A DNA stretch of 42,139 nt, taken from NCBI GenBank assembly GCA_016870055.1, contig VGCQ01000003.1, positions 1 to 42,139 of the forward strand, in the 5' to 3' direction. A model generated the notes under the pieces. That model did no database searches, had not been told where the DNA came from, and worked only from the letters and a program-made list of their open reading frames with translations. Made by a program: the position numbers and the translations under genes. Positions 26,982-34,782 of the stretch are shown in pieces; position 1 is the first letter of the stretch; every line of letters starts with the position of its first letter. This stretch comes from Alphaproteobacteria bacterium. Lineage in GTDB: Bacteria; Pseudomonadota; Alphaproteobacteria; Reyranellales; Reyranellaceae.

Positions 26982-27776
26982 ATGTCCCTGCAGTTCGTTG
27001 TCACTCGGCCACGCGGTCCGCTCGGCTGGTGGATCCTCATTCCCTTCATTGGCGCCTCGATCGCCGTGCTGTGGTGGTCTGCAGTCGGCACAAAGCTCAG
27101 CGTATCGGACTTCATCTCCGGCCTGCCGTGGATCGCCGACTTTCTCGGCCGCATGCTGCCGCCCAATTTCGCCTTCATGGAAAAGCTGATCAAGCCGGCC
27201 GTGGAGACCGTGCAAATCGCCCTTTGGGGCACGCTTCTGGGCATCGTCCTTGCGCTACCGGTCTGCTTCTTTGCGGCTCGCAACCTCTCGCCCTACGCCT
27301 GGGTGTTTCATGGGTTGCGCCAGGTGCTGAACGTGATGCGCGGCATCAACGAAATCATCCTGGCTTTGATCTTCGTCGCGGCGGTCGGCCTCGGCCCGTT
27401 TGCCGGTGTCCTGGCGATCGCCCTGCATGGCGCCGGAATGCTGGGCAAGTTCTTCGCCGAGGCGATCGAGGAAATCGACGAAGGCCCGCTCGACGCCCTG
27501 CGAGCGGCCGGTGCCGGCACACTGCAGCGCATCGTGTTCGGCGTGCTGCCGCAAGTCCTGCCGGCCTGGATCGGCGTCGTTCTCTACCGGTTCGAGACTA
27601 ATATCCGCGTCTCGACGGTGCTCGGCATGGTCGGCGCCGGCGGCATCGGCTTCGAGCTGATCAGCTCGATGAAGCTGTTCGCCTACGAAGACACTGCCGC
27701 CTGCGTGATCGTGATCCTGGTCTTGGTCCTGGCAGCCGACCTTCTGTCATCGAAGCTCCGCGCCATGATTCGCTGA
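26982..27776 (+). CDS. phnE: phosphonate ABC transporter permease
   Basis: A 264-residue inner-membrane permease with about six hydrophobic segments. The PhnE pattern is ETVQIALWGTLLGIVLALPVCFFAARN, and the EAA loop is EAIEEIDEGPLDALRAAGAG, which docks on PhnC. FETNIRVSTVLGMVGAGGIG is a further family block. A single permease gene is present, whereas some phn transporters have two. Its 3' end overlaps the convergent nadC by 30 bases, so no terminator space exists between them. Confidence 0.93.
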   Translation: MSLQFVVTRPRGPLGWWILIPFIGASIAVLWWSAVGTKLSVSDFISGLPWIADFLGRMLPPNFAFMEKLIKPAVETVQIALWGTLLGIVLALPVCFFAARNLSPYAWVFHGLRQVLNVMRGINEIILALIFVAAVGLGPFAGVLAIALHGAGMLGKFFAEAIEEIDEGPLDALRAAGAGTLQRIVFGVLPQVLPAWIGVVLYRFETNIRVSTVLGMVGAGGIGFELISSMKLFAYEDTAACVIVILVLVLAADLLSSKLRAMIR

Positions 27777-28631
27777 AGAAGCGTCCTGCCAGTCGAGGCC
27801 GATATCGAGCACCTGAGCGCTGTGCGTCAGCCAACCAGCCGAGATGAGATCAACGCCACTCGCCGCAACAGCCGGTGCAGTGACAGGGGTGATACGCCCC
27901 GACGCTTCGGCAACCGCGCGCCCGGCGATATGGCGCACCGCTTCGGCCAGCGTGTCGGGGGCCATGTTGTCGAGCAACATGGCATCGGCCTTCTCGGCCA
28001 GCGCCTCATCGAGCTGATCGAGCCGGTCGATCTCGACCTCGACTTTGACCAGGTGGCCGACGCCGGCCCGCGCGGCACGGATCGCCGCCGCGACGCCGCC
28101 CGCCGCAGCCACATGGTTGTCCTTGATCAGCACGGCATCGTCGAGGCCGAAGCGGTGATTGACGCCGCCGCCGGCCCGCACGGCGTATTTCTGTAATGCC
28201 CGTAGGCCGGGCAAAGTCTTGCGCGTGCAGCAGATGCGCGTCTTGTGGCCGCGCACCGCCTCGACCAGCGTCGCGGTTGCCGTCGCCACGCCGCTGAGAT
28301 GGCCGAGAAAGTTCAGTGCCACCCGCTCCGCCGTGAGCATGCTGCGTGCCGCACCGGCAATGACGGCGATGCAGTCGCCCTGCTCGACCCGGCTGCCGTC
28401 CGGCCGATCGACGCGGACCTCGATCGTGGGATCGACCAGGCGAAAGGCGAGTGCCGCCAGGTCGAGACCGGCCACGGTGCCAGGTTGTCGCGCCACCAGC
28501 GCGGTTTTCGCCTTGAGCGTGGCGGGTACGATGGAATCGGTGGTGAGATCGCCGGCCCGGCCGAGATCCTCCAGCAGGGCGGCGCGCACCGGCGCCTCGA
28601 TCAGCAGCAGCGGCAAGGGCGAGAGCGTCAT
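27747..28631 (-). CDS. nadC: nicotinate-nucleotide pyrophosphorylase (quinolinate phosphoribosyltransferase)
   Basis: A 294-residue NadC, which makes nicotinate mononucleotide from quinolinate and PRPP with release of CO2. It has EDLGRAGDLTTDSIVP at the N-terminus, ERVALNFLGHLSGVAT, ICCTRKTLPGLR, KYAVRAGGGVNHRFGLDDAVLIKDNH and VKVEVEIDRLDQLDEAL. The C-terminus extends slightly past the usual end and overlaps phnE. It starts three bases after the nadB stop, as the third gene of nadABC. Confidence 0.95.
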   Translation of the reverse strand: MTLSPLPLLLIEAPVRAALLEDLGRAGDLTTDSIVPATLKAKTALVARQPGTVAGLDLAALAFRLVDPTIEVRVDRPDGSRVEQGDCIAVIAGAARSMLTAERVALNFLGHLSGVATATATLVEAVRGHKTRICCTRKTLPGLRALQKYAVRAGGGVNHRFGLDDAVLIKDNHVAAAGGVAAAIRAARAGVGHLVKVEVEIDRLDQLDEALAEKADAMLLDNMAPDTLAEAVRHIAGRAVAEASGRITPVTAPAVAASGVDLISAGWLTHSAQVLDIGLDWQDASSANHGAELR

Positions 28632-28634
28632 GGC

Positions 28635-30197
28635 TCATGCTCCGATGACAAGAGGTCGCGGGACGGCGGCAAGTGGTGCGGCGCCGCAGACAAGGCGTGT
28701 CCCTGTGTCGTGGACGCGCTGCACCAGCCGACGCGCCCAGGCAGGCGACGTGCGCGGAAAGTCACGGCGCCAATGCCCGCCACGGCTTTCCTCGCGGGCC
28801 AGCGCCGCCGTGGCGATCATGAGCGCGACCAAGGCGGGATCGGCCGCGCTGCCGCCCTTGAAGGCGAGCGGCTGCAAGCGATCGATTGCCCCCTGCAGCG
28901 CGTCGCGATCGCGTGCAACGCCCAACGTGCCGCTGACCAGGCCGCGCAAAGATTCAGCGCGTGGCGCGGCTGGCAGGGCTACCGGGCGCTGTCCCGGCGT
29001 CGGCGCTTCTTGCGTGCCGGCAATGCTTGCCGCCACCGCCCCCGCCATCACGACCGCCTCGAGCAGCGAATTGCTGGCCAGGCGATTGGCGCCGTGCAGG
29101 CCCGTCGCCGCCGCCTCGCCGCAAGCCCATAGGCCTTCGACGGTGCTGCGACCCTCGGCGTCCACGGCGATGCCGCCCATGTGATAGTGAACGGCCGGCC
29201 GCACCGGAATCGGCTGGCGCGCGGGATCGATGCCGACGGAACAGCACCGTGCGGCGATACGCGGGAAGCGATCAGTGAAGCCCGCGCCGAGTGCCGCGCG
29301 GGCATCGAGGAAGACGCGATGGCCGACCGCCATGCGAGCTGCGACGGCACGTGAGACGACATCGCGCGGCTCGAGCTCGCCCCGGCCGTTGCCTGCCATG
29401 AAGCGCGCACCGGTCTCGTCGATCAGCACCGCGCCTTCGCCGCGCACCGCCTCGCTGACCAGCGGCATGGGGTCGAGCCCGATGTCGAGCGCCGTCGGAT
29501 GGAACTGCACGAACTCCATGTCGGCGAGCGCCGCGCCGGCGCGTGCCGCCAGCGCCAGTCCCTGGCCCACGGCGCTCAGCGGGTTGGTGGTGTGGGCGAA
29601 GAGCCCGCCCAGGCCACCGGTTGCCAGCACGACGTGACGGCTGGGCAGCAGGCAGGCCTCGGACCGACCGGCCGCCAGCACCCCGGCGACGCCGCGGTCG
29701 TCGACCAGCAGGCGGCGCGCCTCCAGTCCCTCGATCACTGCGATCGAGGGCGTCGCTCGCACCGCAGCCACCAAGGCGGTCATGATGGCGGCTCCGGTGC
29801 CGTCGCCGGTGACGTGGACGATGCGGCGGCGGGTATGGGCCGCTTCCAGGCCAAGCACGAGGCGACCTGACGCGTCGCGATCGAAGGCAACGCCGTGGCG
29901 CTCCAGCTCGACAATGGCGGCGGGTGCTGCGGTGGCGATGCGGTTGGCCACGACAGGATCGCAGAGCCCGTCGCCTGCCGCCAAAGTGTCGGCTGCGTGG
30001 AGCGACGGACGGTCATCGTCGCCCACGGCAGCTGCGATGCCGCCTTGCGCCCAGGCCGAAGCGGCGCCTTCAGTCAGCGGCACCTTGGCAAGCAGGACGA
30101 CAGGCTGCGGAGCGAGTCTGAGCGCCGTCATCAGGCCAGCGAGCCCGCCACCGACGACGATGGGACAGCCGGCGTGGCCAGAGTTTCCGATCTGCAT
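28635..30197 (-). CDS. nadB: L-aspartate oxidase
   Basis: A 520-residue flavoprotein that oxidises L-aspartate to iminoaspartate for quinolinate synthesis. FAD binding is PIVVGGGLAGLMTALRL. Other blocks are TEGAASAWAQGGIAAAV, HVTGDGTGAAIM, VVLATGGLGGLF, FVQFHPTALDIG and VHYHMGGIAVDAEGR. EGLWACGEAAATGLHGANRLASNSLLEA lies in the C-terminal half. Gene order nadA-nadB-nadC, with 12 bases between nadA and nadB. Confidence 0.95.
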   Translation of the reverse strand: MQIGNSGHAGCPIVVGGGLAGLMTALRLAPQPVVLLAKVPLTEGAASAWAQGGIAAAVGDDDRPSLHAADTLAAGDGLCDPVVANRIATAAPAAIVELERHGVAFDRDASGRLVLGLEAAHTRRRIVHVTGDGTGAAIMTALVAAVRATPSIAVIEGLEARRLLVDDRGVAGVLAAGRSEACLLPSRHVVLATGGLGGLFAHTTNPLSAVGQGLALAARAGAALADMEFVQFHPTALDIGLDPMPLVSEAVRGEGAVLIDETGARFMAGNGRGELEPRDVVSRAVAARMAVGHRVFLDARAALGAGFTDRFPRIAARCCSVGIDPARQPIPVRPAVHYHMGGIAVDAEGRSTVEGLWACGEAAATGLHGANRLASNSLLEAVVMAGAVAASIAGTQEAPTPGQRPVALPAAPRAESLRGLVSGTLGVARDRDALQGAIDRLQPLAFKGGSAADPALVALMIATAALAREESRGGHWRRDFPRTSPAWARRLVQRVHDTGTRLVCGAAPLAAVPRPLVIGA

Positions 30198-30209: not shown

Positions 30210-31184
30210 TCAGCGAACGGCGAGCATGCGCTCGACAGCGCGACGTGCCGCGGCAGCGACGGCGGGATCTACGGTCACCTCGTGCCGCATGGTCTCCAAT
30301 GCCCGGCGGATCTTGGCCAGGGTGATCCGCTTCATGTGCGGGCAAAGATTGCAGGGCCGCACGAAGTCGACGTCGGGATTGAGCGCGGCGACATTGTCGC
30401 TCATCGAGCATTCGGTCATCAGCACGACACGGCCCGGCTTCTCGCGCGTCACGTAGTCGGCCATCGCCGCCGTGGAGCCGGCAAAGTCGGCCTCAGCGAC
30501 GACCTCGGGCGGACACTCCGGATGGGCCAATACGACGATGCCGGGATGGCCGGCGCGCAACAGGCGCACGTCCTTGGCGGAGAAGCGCTCGTGGACCTCG
30601 CAGTGGCCCGCCCAGGTGACGATCTCGACGTTGGTCTCCTTGGCGATGTTCTGCGCGAGGTATTCGTCGGGCAGCATGATCACCTTGGGCACGCCCAGGC
30701 TCTCGACGATCTTTCGGGCATTGCTCGAAGTGCAGCAGATATCGCTCTCGGCCTTCACCGCCGCCGAGGTGTTGACGTACGTCACCACCGGCACGCCGGG
30801 CCAGCGCTGGCGCAGCAGGCGGACGTCCGCCGCCGTGATCGAGGCGGCAAGCGAGCAGCCGGCGCGCAGGTCGGGGATCAGCACGCGCTTGGCAGGGTTG
30901 AGGAGCTTGGCGGTCTCGGCCATGAAGTGAACGCCCGCCAGCACGATCACCTCGGCATCGACTTTCATGGCCTCGCGCGCCAGGGCCAGGCTGTCGCCGA
31001 CGATGTCAGCCACGCCGTGGAAGATCTCGGGTGTCTGGTAGTTATGGGCAAGAACGACGGCTTTTCTTTCACGCTTCAGCCGGTTGATGGCATCGACATC
31101 GGGAGCGAACTCCGACCATTCGGCCGGCAGGATCACCGACTTGACCCGGTCATAGAGTTGGTCGGCCGGTGCAATGATTGTCAT
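30210..31184 (-). CDS. nadA: quinolinate synthase
   Basis: A 324-residue quinolinate synthase, which condenses iminoaspartate with dihydroxyacetone phosphate using a [4Fe-4S] cluster. The three cluster cysteines fall in [19 protein letters not shown] and [22 protein letters not shown] lies near the start, and [11 protein letters not shown] and ECSMSDNVA are further family blocks. The ATG at 31184 has an AGGTG site. It is the first gene of nadABC, and the promoter region just upstream contains three copies of a TGCTCA-type palindrome. Confidence 0.96.
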
Positions 31185-31196
31185 ATGACACCTATA

Positions 31197-31211
31197 TGCT
31201 CTTTATGAGTA
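31197..31211. promoter_or_regulatory. nad operator copy 1 (TGCTCT-TTA-TGAGTA)
   Basis: Imperfect copy of the 15-base palindrome TGCTCA-N3-TGAGCA, 13 bases before the nadA start and about at the expected transcription start. Together with copies 2 and 3 it forms a phased array, the probable binding site of the NadQ-type repressor encoded just upstream. Confidence 0.65.
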
Positions 31212-31216
31212 TATTA

Positions 31217-31245
31217 ATGCTAATTGTGAGCATAAGAGAAGTCAA
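31217..31245 (-). promoter_or_regulatory. candidate sigma-70-type promoter of nadABC
   Basis: On the minus strand, TTGACT (31245-31240), 17 bases of spacer, then TAGCAT (31222-31217), pointing to nadA. It overlaps operator copy 2 and is flanked by copies 1 and 3, a layout expected for repression. Confidence 0.5.
31218..31232. promoter_or_regulatory. nad operator copy 2 (TGCTAA-TTG-TGAGCA)
   Basis: Second copy of the palindrome, one mismatch from the TGCTCA-N3-TGAGCA form, beginning 21 bases after copy 1 (two helical turns). It overlaps the predicted -10 and spacer of the nadA promoter, so protein bound here would block RNA polymerase. Confidence 0.7.
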
Positions 31246-31248
31246 GGG

Positions 31249-31263
31249 TGCTCACTATGAGCA
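31249..31263. promoter_or_regulatory. nad operator copy 3 (perfect TGCTCA-CTA-TGAGCA)
   Basis: A perfect inverted repeat, beginning 31 bases after copy 2 (three helical turns) and just upstream of the predicted -35 box. As the best copy it is probably the strongest site. The spacing puts all three copies on one face of the helix. Confidence 0.75.
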
Positions 31264-31285
31264 TTTCACCTGACTTCAGCGGGTG

Positions 31286-32206
31286 CTAAGCGCGCGCGAG
31301 CGGCAGTTTGGAACCGGCCACGGCCCGCTCGAGCACGATTTCGCGCCGGAACCGATAGAGCTTGGCCGGCCGGCCGCCGGTGTCGGCCGTCATGGCACCG
31401 GTCTCCTCGACCAACCACTGCTGCTCGACCAAACGACGGAAATTCTGCTTGTGCAGGAGGCGCCCCGCCAGCGCTTCGACGGCACGCTGAAGTTGGCCCA
31501 AGGTGAAGTCCGGCGGCATCAGTTCGAAGACGACCGGGCGGTACTTGATCTTGGCCCTGAGCCGCGCGATGCCGGTGGCGAGGATGCGCCGATGGTCGTA
31601 GCGCATGGGCTCGCCCGGCACCGGATCGACGATGGCGTCGCGCGGCCGGCTGGCCTCCGGCACCAAGCCCGCCTCGTAGAGCAGTTCATAGCGCTGCAGG
31701 GCGAGTTCCTCGTTCCAGCTGGAAACATCGAAGTTGCCCTCGACCCTTTGCTGGCGCCGGCGCTTGGCGTCGTCGGAAGCAGCCTCGACCCAGCTCTTGA
31801 GCCGCGGCAGGACGGTGCGTGTCAGGATCTTCGGCGGACCTTCTCGCCAGTCCTCCCAAGGAAAGTAACGATAGAAGCTCTGCCAGCCGAGTTCGTGCTG
31901 GCCGGCGGCAGCGCGTTCGCGCGTCAGCCCAAGATACGAGATCGATACGATGCGATAGCCCAATGTCGATTCGCGGTAGCGATCGGCGAAGGTATAGAGC
32001 TGCTCGACATAGCCCAACGGATGATGGGTCTGGTGCTCGACCCAAGCGCGCACACCGGCCTGCAGAGTGGGATGATCGCTTTCGAAAGGGCCGGACGGCA
32101 GCAGGGCGCCGTTCTCCAGAGTGAGGACCTGCGGTTCATCGCCGATCAACGCGACCAGCACGGCATTGAGCTCGACGGCGACAGGACGAGGTTCGGCGAC
32201 CATCAT
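31286..32206 (-). CDS. nadQ: Nudix-like transcriptional regulator of NAD synthesis (NadQ/NrtR type)
   Basis: About 306 residues. The N-terminal half is Nudix-like (VAVELNAVLVALIGDEPQVLTLEN, TLQAGVRAWVEHQTHHPLGYVEQLYTF, YRIVSISYLGLTR) but shows no complete catalytic Nudix box. The C-terminal winged-helix half has FELMPPDFTLGQLQRAVEALAGRLLHKQNFRRLVEQ and PAKLYRFRREIV. This matches the NrtR/NadQ (COG4111) group, which represses nad genes in response to NAD-related metabolites. Location directly upstream of nadA, with a three-copy operator between them, fits well. Two adjacent ATGs (32206 and 32203) are possible starts. Confidence 0.82.
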   Translation of the reverse strand: MMVAEPRPVAVELNAVLVALIGDEPQVLTLENGALLPSGPFESDHPTLQAGVRAWVEHQTHHPLGYVEQLYTFADRYRESTLGYRIVSISYLGLTRERAAAGQHELGWQSFYRYFPWEDWREGPPKILTRTVLPRLKSWVEAASDDAKRRRQQRVEGNFDVSSWNEELALQRYELLYEAGLVPEASRPRDAIVDPVPGEPMRYDHRRILATGIARLRAKIKYRPVVFELMPPDFTLGQLQRAVEALAGRLLHKQNFRRLVEQQWLVEETGAMTADTGGRPAKLYRFRREIVLERAVAGSKLPLARA

Positions 32207-32399: not shown

Positions 32400-33599
32400 T
32401 TATGAGTCGAGCCCGTTGCCACCGTAGAGCCATTCCAGCGTGTCCAGCCACTCAGCCTGGGTCTTGCCACTCATGATGGCATTGCGCAGAGCGGCGCGCG
32501 GGCCCGCGGGGTGGTAGACGTGGTCGCCCATGGCGCGCGACATCAGCTGCAGGCGTGTCGTACGCAAGACACGTCGGTCACGATAGGTAGCAAGACCTTC
32601 TTCCGGCGTCTCGGTGCGATGGAGCGAGTCGGCCAAACAGACGGCATCTTCTATCGCCATGCAGGCGCCCTGCGCCATGTACTGCAACATTGGATGCGCG
32701 GCGTCACCCAACAATGCCACGCGGCCGTCGAGCCACCTGTCCGTCGGCTCACGATCGCACAGCACCCACATGCGCCAATCCTTGCCATGACTGATGATGC
32801 TCTGCGCACGCGCGCAGACATGGGAGAAGCCCTTGCGCACCTCCTCGGTGGGCACCGGCTTGCCGGCCACCGGCTCGGGAGCATCGCTATGATAAGTCAC
32901 GACCAGGTTGAAGACCTTCCAGCCCGATAGCGGGTAGTGGACGATGTGGCACTTCGGTCCGGCCCACAGCGTGGCGGCGTTCCAGCGCAAATCCTCCGGC
33001 ATGCGCTCGGTCGGAATCACCGAGCGATAGGTCGTGTGTCCCGAGACGCGTGGCGGGCCGTCGGCCGTAACCTGCCGACGGATGTTCGACCACAATCCGT
33101 CGGCGCCGATCAGAGCCGCGCCGCGGACCTCGCCGCCGCTTGCAAGCCGCGCTGCGACACTGCTGCCGTCCTGAGCGTAGCCCACGATCTCGGCGCTGGT
33201 GCGCAGCTCGATCAGCGCGCTGTCGCGACAGCCCTGCAGCAACACGCCATGCAGGTCGCCGCGATGAACGACGGCGTAGGGATTGCCGAAGCGTGCGCGG
33301 AATGCTTGGCCGAGATCGATACGTGTGATCTCGCCGTCCGCCAGGGCATCCATCAGCCGCAGCTGGTCGATATAGACCGCCATACCACGCGCCGCCTCGC
33401 CGACGCCCAGGCGATCAAAGCAGTGGAAGGCGTTGGGTCCGAGCTGGATGCCGGCGCCGATCTCGCCGAGCTGCGCGGCCTTCTCCAGCACCAGCGAGGC
33501 CATGCCCTTCTGCGCCAAGGCAAGCGCTGCGGCGAGCCCGCCGATGCCGCCGCCGGCAATCAGGATCCTATCGTGGGCCACCGACGACCTTGTCGTCAT
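32400..33599 (-). CDS. FAD-dependent monooxygenase, 3-hydroxybenzoate 6-hydroxylase-like
   Basis: A 399-residue class A flavin hydroxylase. FAD binding is ILIAGGGIGGLAAALALAQKG. The segment EIGAGIQLGPNAFHCFDRLGVGEAARG is followed by RARFGNPYAVVHRGDLHGVLL, ALIGADGLWSNIRRQV, EDLRWNAATLWAGPKCHIVHYPL and VALLGDAAHPMLQYMAQGACMA. The C-terminal DTLEWLYGG block is present. These blocks match 3-hydroxybenzoate 6-monooxygenase, which makes gentisate. No gentisate ring-cleavage gene is in the window, so the substrate could be a different hydroxyarene. It overlaps the CoA-transferase gene upstream by 32 bases. A GTG at 33581 with AAGG upstream is an alternative start. Confidence 0.88.
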   Translation of the reverse strand: MTTRSSVAHDRILIAGGGIGGLAAALALAQKGMASLVLEKAAQLGEIGAGIQLGPNAFHCFDRLGVGEAARGMAVYIDQLRLMDALADGEITRIDLGQAFRARFGNPYAVVHRGDLHGVLLQGCRDSALIELRTSAEIVGYAQDGSSVAARLASGGEVRGAALIGADGLWSNIRRQVTADGPPRVSGHTTYRSVIPTERMPEDLRWNAATLWAGPKCHIVHYPLSGWKVFNLVVTYHSDAPEPVAGKPVPTEEVRKGFSHVCARAQSIISHGKDWRMWVLCDREPTDRWLDGRVALLGDAAHPMLQYMAQGACMAIEDAVCLADSLHRTETPEEGLATYRDRRVLRTTRLQLMSRAMGDHVYHPAGPRAALRNAIMSGKTQAEWLDTLEWLYGGNGLDS

Positions 33600-34782
33600 G
33601 AAGCTTGCCGATCTCGCGATCCGACAGACCTAGGATGCCCGACAGGATCTCGTCCGTATGCTGGCCGAGCAGGGGCGCGGGGCGGGGCGGCTCGCGCGTC
33701 ACGGCGCCGAACTGCAGCGGGGTCGCCGCCACCGGATAGCGGCCAATGCCCGGCTGGTCGACGATCGTGAACATCGGATTGTCGAGTACGTTCGTCTTGT
33801 CGGCGGCAAGCTCGCGGAAGCTTTGATAGGGCGCCCACAGAGCACCCGCCTTCTTGAGCGCCGCCGCTACGTCGGCAGCGTTCAACGACGCCACCCATGG
33901 CTCGATGACGGCACAAAGCTCGGTGCGCGCCTGCCAACGGCCGGCGTCGGTCTTGAGATCGACGCCCTTGGCCACTTCGATCTTCTCGAAGGCCTCGACA
34001 AAACCGCCGGCGGCCGCCAGGGCATCGACGTGGCGGTCAGAGAAGATGCAGATCATGACGAAGCGGCCATCCTTGGTTCTGAAATCGCGCCCGAAGGTGC
34101 CAAAAATCTCATTGCCGAACCGCGGGCGGTCGACATCGTTGATGGCAGCCTCGCCGATGTAGCCCAGCGCCGAGGTGGCGGCGAGCGCCATATCCTGCAG
34201 CGGCAGCACGATGCGCTGGCCCTGGCCGGTCATCCGTCGGTGCCGCTCGGCCACGACGATTGCCAGCGCTCCGGCGTAAGCGGTCGCAAGATCCCAAGGT
34301 GGCGCCACGGCATTCACCGGACCGCGATGGCCGACCGGGCCGGTGACCATGGGAAAGCCGGTGATGGCGTTCACCGTGTAGTCGACATGCGCACCGCCAT
34401 CGCGCGCACCGACGATGTTGAGGGCGATCAGGTCGGCGCGCTTCTTCGACAGCTCCTCGTAGGAAAGCCAGCCACGGGCCGGCATGTTGGTCGTGAAGAT
34501 GCCAGCGCCCTCGCCCGGTGCGGTGATCAGGGCTGTCAGCAGCTCGCGGCCACGCGGGCTGCGCAGATCGACGGCGATCGAGCGCTTGCCCTTGTTGAGG
34601 CCAGCCCAGTAGATCGACCGGCCGTCTTCGGTGATCGGCCAGCGGTCGTTATCGAGGCCGCCCTTGATGTCGTCGAAGCGGATCACGTCGGCGCCGAGCT
34701 GCGCCAACGTCATGCCGCCCAGAGGGGCGGCGATGAACGCCGAGCCCTCGACGATGCGAAGGCCGGTCAGAATTCCTGTCAT
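33568..34782 (-). CDS. mct: Mct-like CoA-transferase (2-methylfumaryl-CoA isomerase family)
   Basis: A 404-residue type III CoA-transferase that resembles the mesaconyl-C1-CoA to C4-CoA transferase (Mct) of the 3-hydroxypropionate bi-cycle along its whole length. It shares GLRIVEGSAFIAAPLGGMTLAQLG, YWAGLNKGKRSIAVDL, ITAPGEGAGIFTTNMPARGWLS, VDYTVNAITG, NPMFTIVDQPGIG and PLLGQHTDEILSGILGLS. The catalytic Asp164 is in APPWDLATAYAG. Mct moves CoA within one molecule. The other bi-cycle genes (mcl, mch, meh) are not in this window, so the substrate here may be another unsaturated dicarboxylate. It lies 19 bases after the OYE stop, in an operon with the hydroxylase. Assignment is from remembered family sequence. 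Confidence 0.85.
   Translation of the reverse strand: MTGILTGLRIVEGSAFIAAPLGGMTLAQLGADVIRFDDIKGGLDNDRWPITEDGRSIYWAGLNKGKRSIAVDLRSPRGRELLTALITAPGEGAGIFTTNMPARGWLSYEELSKKRADLIALNIVGARDGGAHVDYTVNAITGFPMVTGPVGHRGPVNAVAPPWDLATAYAGALAIVVAERHRRMTGQGQRIVLPLQDMALAATSALGYIGEAAINDVDRPRFGNEIFGTFGRDFRTKDGRFVMICIFSDRHVDALAAAGGFVEAFEKIEVAKGVDLKTDAGRWQARTELCAVIEPWVASLNAADVAAALKKAGALWAPYQSFRELAADKTNVLDNPMFTIVDQPGIGRYPVAATPLQFGAVTREPPRPAPLLGQHTDEILSGILGLSDREIGKLHDDKVVGGPR

Follow-up and report, generated by a model that had tools for sequence, protein, structure and literature searches.

NadQ has been proposed as a regulator of the nadABC genes, with the motif ttATRCTCannntGAGYATaa, and these genes constitute its core target, with 67 sites reported in 30 genomes (Leyn et al., 2016; PMC5343134). 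The locus described here lies in a window of 42,139 nucleotides, which is the whole stretch of DNA that was analysed, and shares with the NadQ regulon (COG4111; structures 7q91-7q94) the regulator family, the palindromic motif, the nadABC target and the adjacency of nadQ and nadABC. It differs in that three sites occur at one promoter in the window's clade, whereas most relatives have a pair (O1 and O2), and in that the window combines a short 21-bp O1-O2 spacing with the lack of a leader hairpin. The NrtR regulators of NAD metabolism have a winged-helix DNA-binding domain (NrtR_WHD) homologous to that of the window NadQ, but the latter matches the NCBIfam NtrR model at residues 201-287 only and, with 54 bits, does not reach its cut-off of 400. 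Steric repression from multiple operators is also known for bacterial repressors in general. The window likewise has predicted operators overlapping the -10 box, the start and the upstream region, and appears to show nothing distinctive in this respect beyond the arrangement itself.

As the original prediction had proposed, a NadQ/NrtR-type regulator is encoded directly upstream of nadA: PDB 7q91_A ('NADQ transcription factor') matches its residues 11-305 (E 3.2e-108), and NrtR_WHD (Pfam PF21906) is found at its C-terminal end with 76.7 bits against a cut-off of 27. Both nadQ and nadA are on the - strand, separated by 101 bp, and nadABC lie immediately 3' of nadQ, linking the regulator with the genes of de novo NAD synthesis (Table 1). 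Neither a terminator nor an autoregulatory NadQ site was found near nadQ in the window. Upstream of nadQ, window positions 32400-34782 (- strand) hold a 3-hydroxybenzoate 6-monooxygenase-like gene and a CoA-transferase family III gene, the latter 2-methylfumaryl-CoA isomerase-like with a score below the cut-off; neither is evidently tied to NAD.

Table 1. Genes and predicted regulatory elements of the nadQ-nadABC locus (window coordinates)
Feature	Position	Strand	Basis or description
nadQ	31286..32206	-	repressor NadQ, NrtR-type winged helix, 306 aa
O3, ATGCTCATAGTGAGCAC	31248..31264	-	upstream of -35; clade-specific third predicted operator
-35 hexamer TTGACT	31240..31245	-	promoter scan; conserved TTGAC in relatives
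O1, ATGCTCACAATTAGCAT	31217..31233	-	ancestral predicted operator; 3' arm (TAGCAT) doubles as -10 box
-10 hexamer TAGCAT	31217..31222	-	promoter scan
O2, ATACTCATAAAGAGCAT	31196..31212	-	ancestral second predicted operator; covers inferred start, shortly before ribosome site
Likely nadA ribosome-binding site AGGTG	31189..31193	-	sequence inspection; kept in relatives
nadA, quinolinate synthase	30210..31184	-	TIGR00550, 310 bits, above cut-off
nadB, L-aspartate oxidase	28635..30197	-	TIGR00551, 470 bits, above cut-off
nadC, quinolinate phosphoribosyltransferase	27747..28631	-	TIGR00078, 319 bits, above cut-off

On the - strand the gap reads ...ATGCTCATAGTGAGCAC-CC-TTGACT-TCTCTT-ATGCTCACAATTAGCAT-TAAT-ATACTCATAAAGAGCAT-ATAGGTGTCAT-ATG. 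Palindromes had been predicted at 31197, 31218 and 31249 with spacings of 21 and 31 bases, and all three are present as described; the pattern TGCTCA-N3-TGAGCA given for them is exact at 31249, while the copies at 31218 and 31197 carry one and two mismatches, respectively. Each of O1, O2 and O3 has exactly one mismatch in 14 to the published NadQ core ATRCTCANNNTGAGYAT, and no other place in the genome, which comprises 5.01 Mb in 648 contigs, comes within one mismatch of it. Since a mean of 0.00055 such sites is obtained when the 101-bp gap is dinucleotide-shuffled, the three sites lie far beyond chance. Two mismatches to the core are found at G000:C1:73764-73780 and eleven other genome places, which are possible extra targets; the control pattern for the core occurs at 5 genome places with up to two mismatches. 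The sole promoter-like site in 30900-31600 is the predicted TTGACT-N17-TAGCAT (- strand), with its -10 inside the copy at 31218 and its -35 between that copy and the one at 31249. The proposal that NadQ operators lie over the nadABC promoter is thus supported at the sequence level, as the best matches of the genome to the published motif sit here, and the window array is a predicted NadQ operator array with one site more than the usual pair.

It is very likely that this is a NadQ-repressed nadABC promoter, with NadQ on three operators, a steric block at O1 and O2, and O3 as an extra operator. From the position of the -10 box, we infer that nadA transcription starts within O2. NadQ, encoded next to the array, would bind the three palindromes, and a dimer on O1, which holds the -10, or on O2, which would cover the start, would exclude RNA polymerase. 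O3, on the upstream side of the -35, could be a lineage-specific operator, increasing occupancy or providing one more position for a block. We infer binding, repression and the role of O3 from genes, sites, promoter-like sequence and conservation that are themselves observed. The title of the 2022 NadQ structure paper by Minazzato reportedly names the protein as Nudix-like and ATP-responsive, and the effector would presumably be the ATP/NAD-related signal reported for NadQ.

Conservation was assessed over 80 named nadQ loci, the nearest of which belong to Reyranella and relatives, together with searches of whole genomes. Sites upstream of nadA are conserved in relatives, as the original prediction would lead one to expect, but the conserved unit is the O1/O2 pair: two sites are found in nearly every locus with a readable nadA or nadC, and in alpha- and betaproteobacteria some 100 loci have the pair upstream of nad genes. 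The third copy of the window array is clade-specific. The 3' arm of O1 in relatives is TAGCAT or TAGTAT, with the first T replaced by C or A in a few, a tendency favoured by those searches that used O1 with a TAGCAT-type arm, although an independent symmetric-consensus scan agrees. The O1 palindrome is broken consistently at the base that creates the -10 hexamer, and a TTGAC hexamer, conserved in alpha- and betaproteobacteria, mostly lies 16-18 bp ahead of it. Because of this altered arm and this TTGAC distance, the -10 box seems to be built into the operator. O2 is a near-perfect palindrome in relatives and in most loci lies directly ahead of the ribosome site. A second promoter at O2 was considered and rejected: by eye, no consistent -35/-10 was seen, and G is kept where a -10 needs T. 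Judged by sequence conservation, O1 and O2 are an ancient pair at the nad genes of alpha- and betaproteobacteria.

Among the same-genus genomes, ten had no nadQ match; nadA was likewise unmatched in eight of these and only partially matched in two. The eight with neither gene (G001, G005, G012, G017, G022, G027, G033 and G036), some of which are near-complete, suggest that in these Reyranella-type genomes de novo NAD synthesis and its repressor were lost together. In addition, NadQ of L052 (Rhizobium sp. Q54), L059 (Enhydrobacter aerosaccus) and L071 (Asaia bogorensis) falls inside the Reyranella group, and these names may be misleading.

The third site was found in the window, L040-L045 and L076, and not in relatives outside one NadQ clade; its exact pattern occurs in 9/65 same-genus (Reyranella) genomes. 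In the NadQ tree the O3 carriers fall in one clade of nine (support 100/98), and O3 is conserved in 8/8 readable members, unlike the sequence on its upstream side; the ninth member (L061) ends before nadA and so falls outside the scoring. This is the pattern expected of a gained and retained site, and O3 is probably a recent, clade-specific addition. Because all members have a final GAGCAC in place of GAGCAT, O3 may be a weaker site. That departure from consensus at the last base, the position of O3 next to the -35 on its upstream side (with its centre at about -46 from the inferred start), and its absence from most relatives, which would regulate without it, could all fit an auxiliary site for NadQ storage, or for NadQ contact with polymerase upstream of the -35, rather than a repressing operator. 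We consider this quite unlikely, as O3 carries only one or two mismatches in 14 and its conserved core inside an unconserved upstream flank resembles a real operator. It is highly improbable that the palindromes work in RNA as small hairpins and not as DNA operators: O2 belongs at least in part to the transcript and, in relatives that have it deep in the leader, could form a 7-bp hairpin beside the ribosome site, but O3 and O1 are upstream of the inferred start and would be outside nadA mRNA from that promoter, and the palindrome motif is identical to the published NadQ DNA motif.

Helical phasing had been offered as the point of the array, with one-face placement allowing cooperative binding of NadQ dimers. 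The window spacings of 21 and 31 bp do correspond to 2.0 and 2.95 turns, and both 21 bp and 31-32 bp (O3-O1, one clade only) are retained among clade members. However, other Reyranella groups have O1-O2 spacings of 22, 24, 26 or 27 bp, of which 26-27 bp (2.5 turns) is common in the genus, and most loci outside the genus have 51-103 bp; near-integral turns are limited to the O3-O1 distance and to those clades with an O1-O2 spacing of 21-22 bp. The 34 distinct O1-O2 spacings showed no phase preference (Rayleigh test, 10.5-bp period, R 0.11, p 0.65), and the value over all loci (R 0.19, p 0.025) is inflated by relatedness and its phase is off integral turns. As spacings vary without phase preference, phasing is no general requirement, and closely packed sites can repress sterically without it. 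Phasing as functional design is therefore unlikely, although it may have a local role within the window's clade. Steric repression by NadQ from packed operators is the reading that we retain.

The promoter region of the window has no leader hairpin, but in longer-spaced loci outside Reyranella (L142-L164, L082, L083, L092, L093 and many of L094-L119) O1 and O2 flank a GC hairpin and the T-run that follows it. Under a relaxed definition, a terminator-like hairpin is present in 39/53 long-spaced pairs, which share ancestry and are not phylogenetically independent, against 3.8% of mononucleotide shuffles; another definition gives 36/57 against 6.5 expected from dinucleotide shuffles. The hairpins occur in both alpha- and betaproteobacteria, differ in loop length, and their stems do not align. 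Despite the widely varying O1-O2 distance, the gap from the end of the stem to O2 is 17.3 +/- 1.2 nt, compared with standard deviations of 6.6 for the hairpin-to-O1 distance and 10.1 for the whole O1-O2 segment. Similarly, T frequency reaches 0.95 at -15 when loci are anchored on O2 and is smeared when they are anchored on O1. A search of the window and 11 loci against Rfam gave no family at gathering threshold.

The hairpin is unlikely to be the terminator of nadQ or another upstream gene, since it also occurs at loci with an apparently divergent upstream gene, namely nadQ itself in L093 and other genes in L146, L147 and L160; in L146 and L147 the upstream frames are without a Pfam match and are regarded as genes on the strength of two similar open frames. 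In L154, where the upstream gene is also apparently divergent, a stem occurs without a full T-run. RNA polymerase stalls roughly 14 bp ahead of a DNA roadblock, and a coupling between NadQ at O2 and the terminator is suggested because the stem-O2 distance places a stopped polymerase approximately at the start of the U-tract. NadQ bound at O2 would hold polymerase in or near that tract, giving roadblock-coupled attenuation in relatives. Alternatively, the hairpin may be an ordinary attenuator, or the T-tract before O2 may aid NadQ binding. It is a tentative and rather doubtful proposal that in most sampled relatives NadQ acts twice, at O1 on initiation and at O2 as a roadblock at a leader terminator 17 +/- 1 nt before it, and that the window lineage lost the terminator and gained packed operators and O3. 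The literature searched contained no relevant account of attenuation at nad genes or of a repressor whose roadblock is coupled to termination, and the leader hairpin of relatives has apparently been overlooked so far.

To conclude, the regulator, predicted operators and promoter of nadABC have been identified in a Reyranella lineage, and the window's clade illustrates an operator array growing by one site. The leader terminator of relatives is the best lead to emerge from this work. An operator-terminator-operator leader on NAD genes is conserved across two classes with a fixed terminator-operator distance and, if the proposed coupling is true, would offer a natural system in which the coupling of a repressor to intrinsic termination could be tested.
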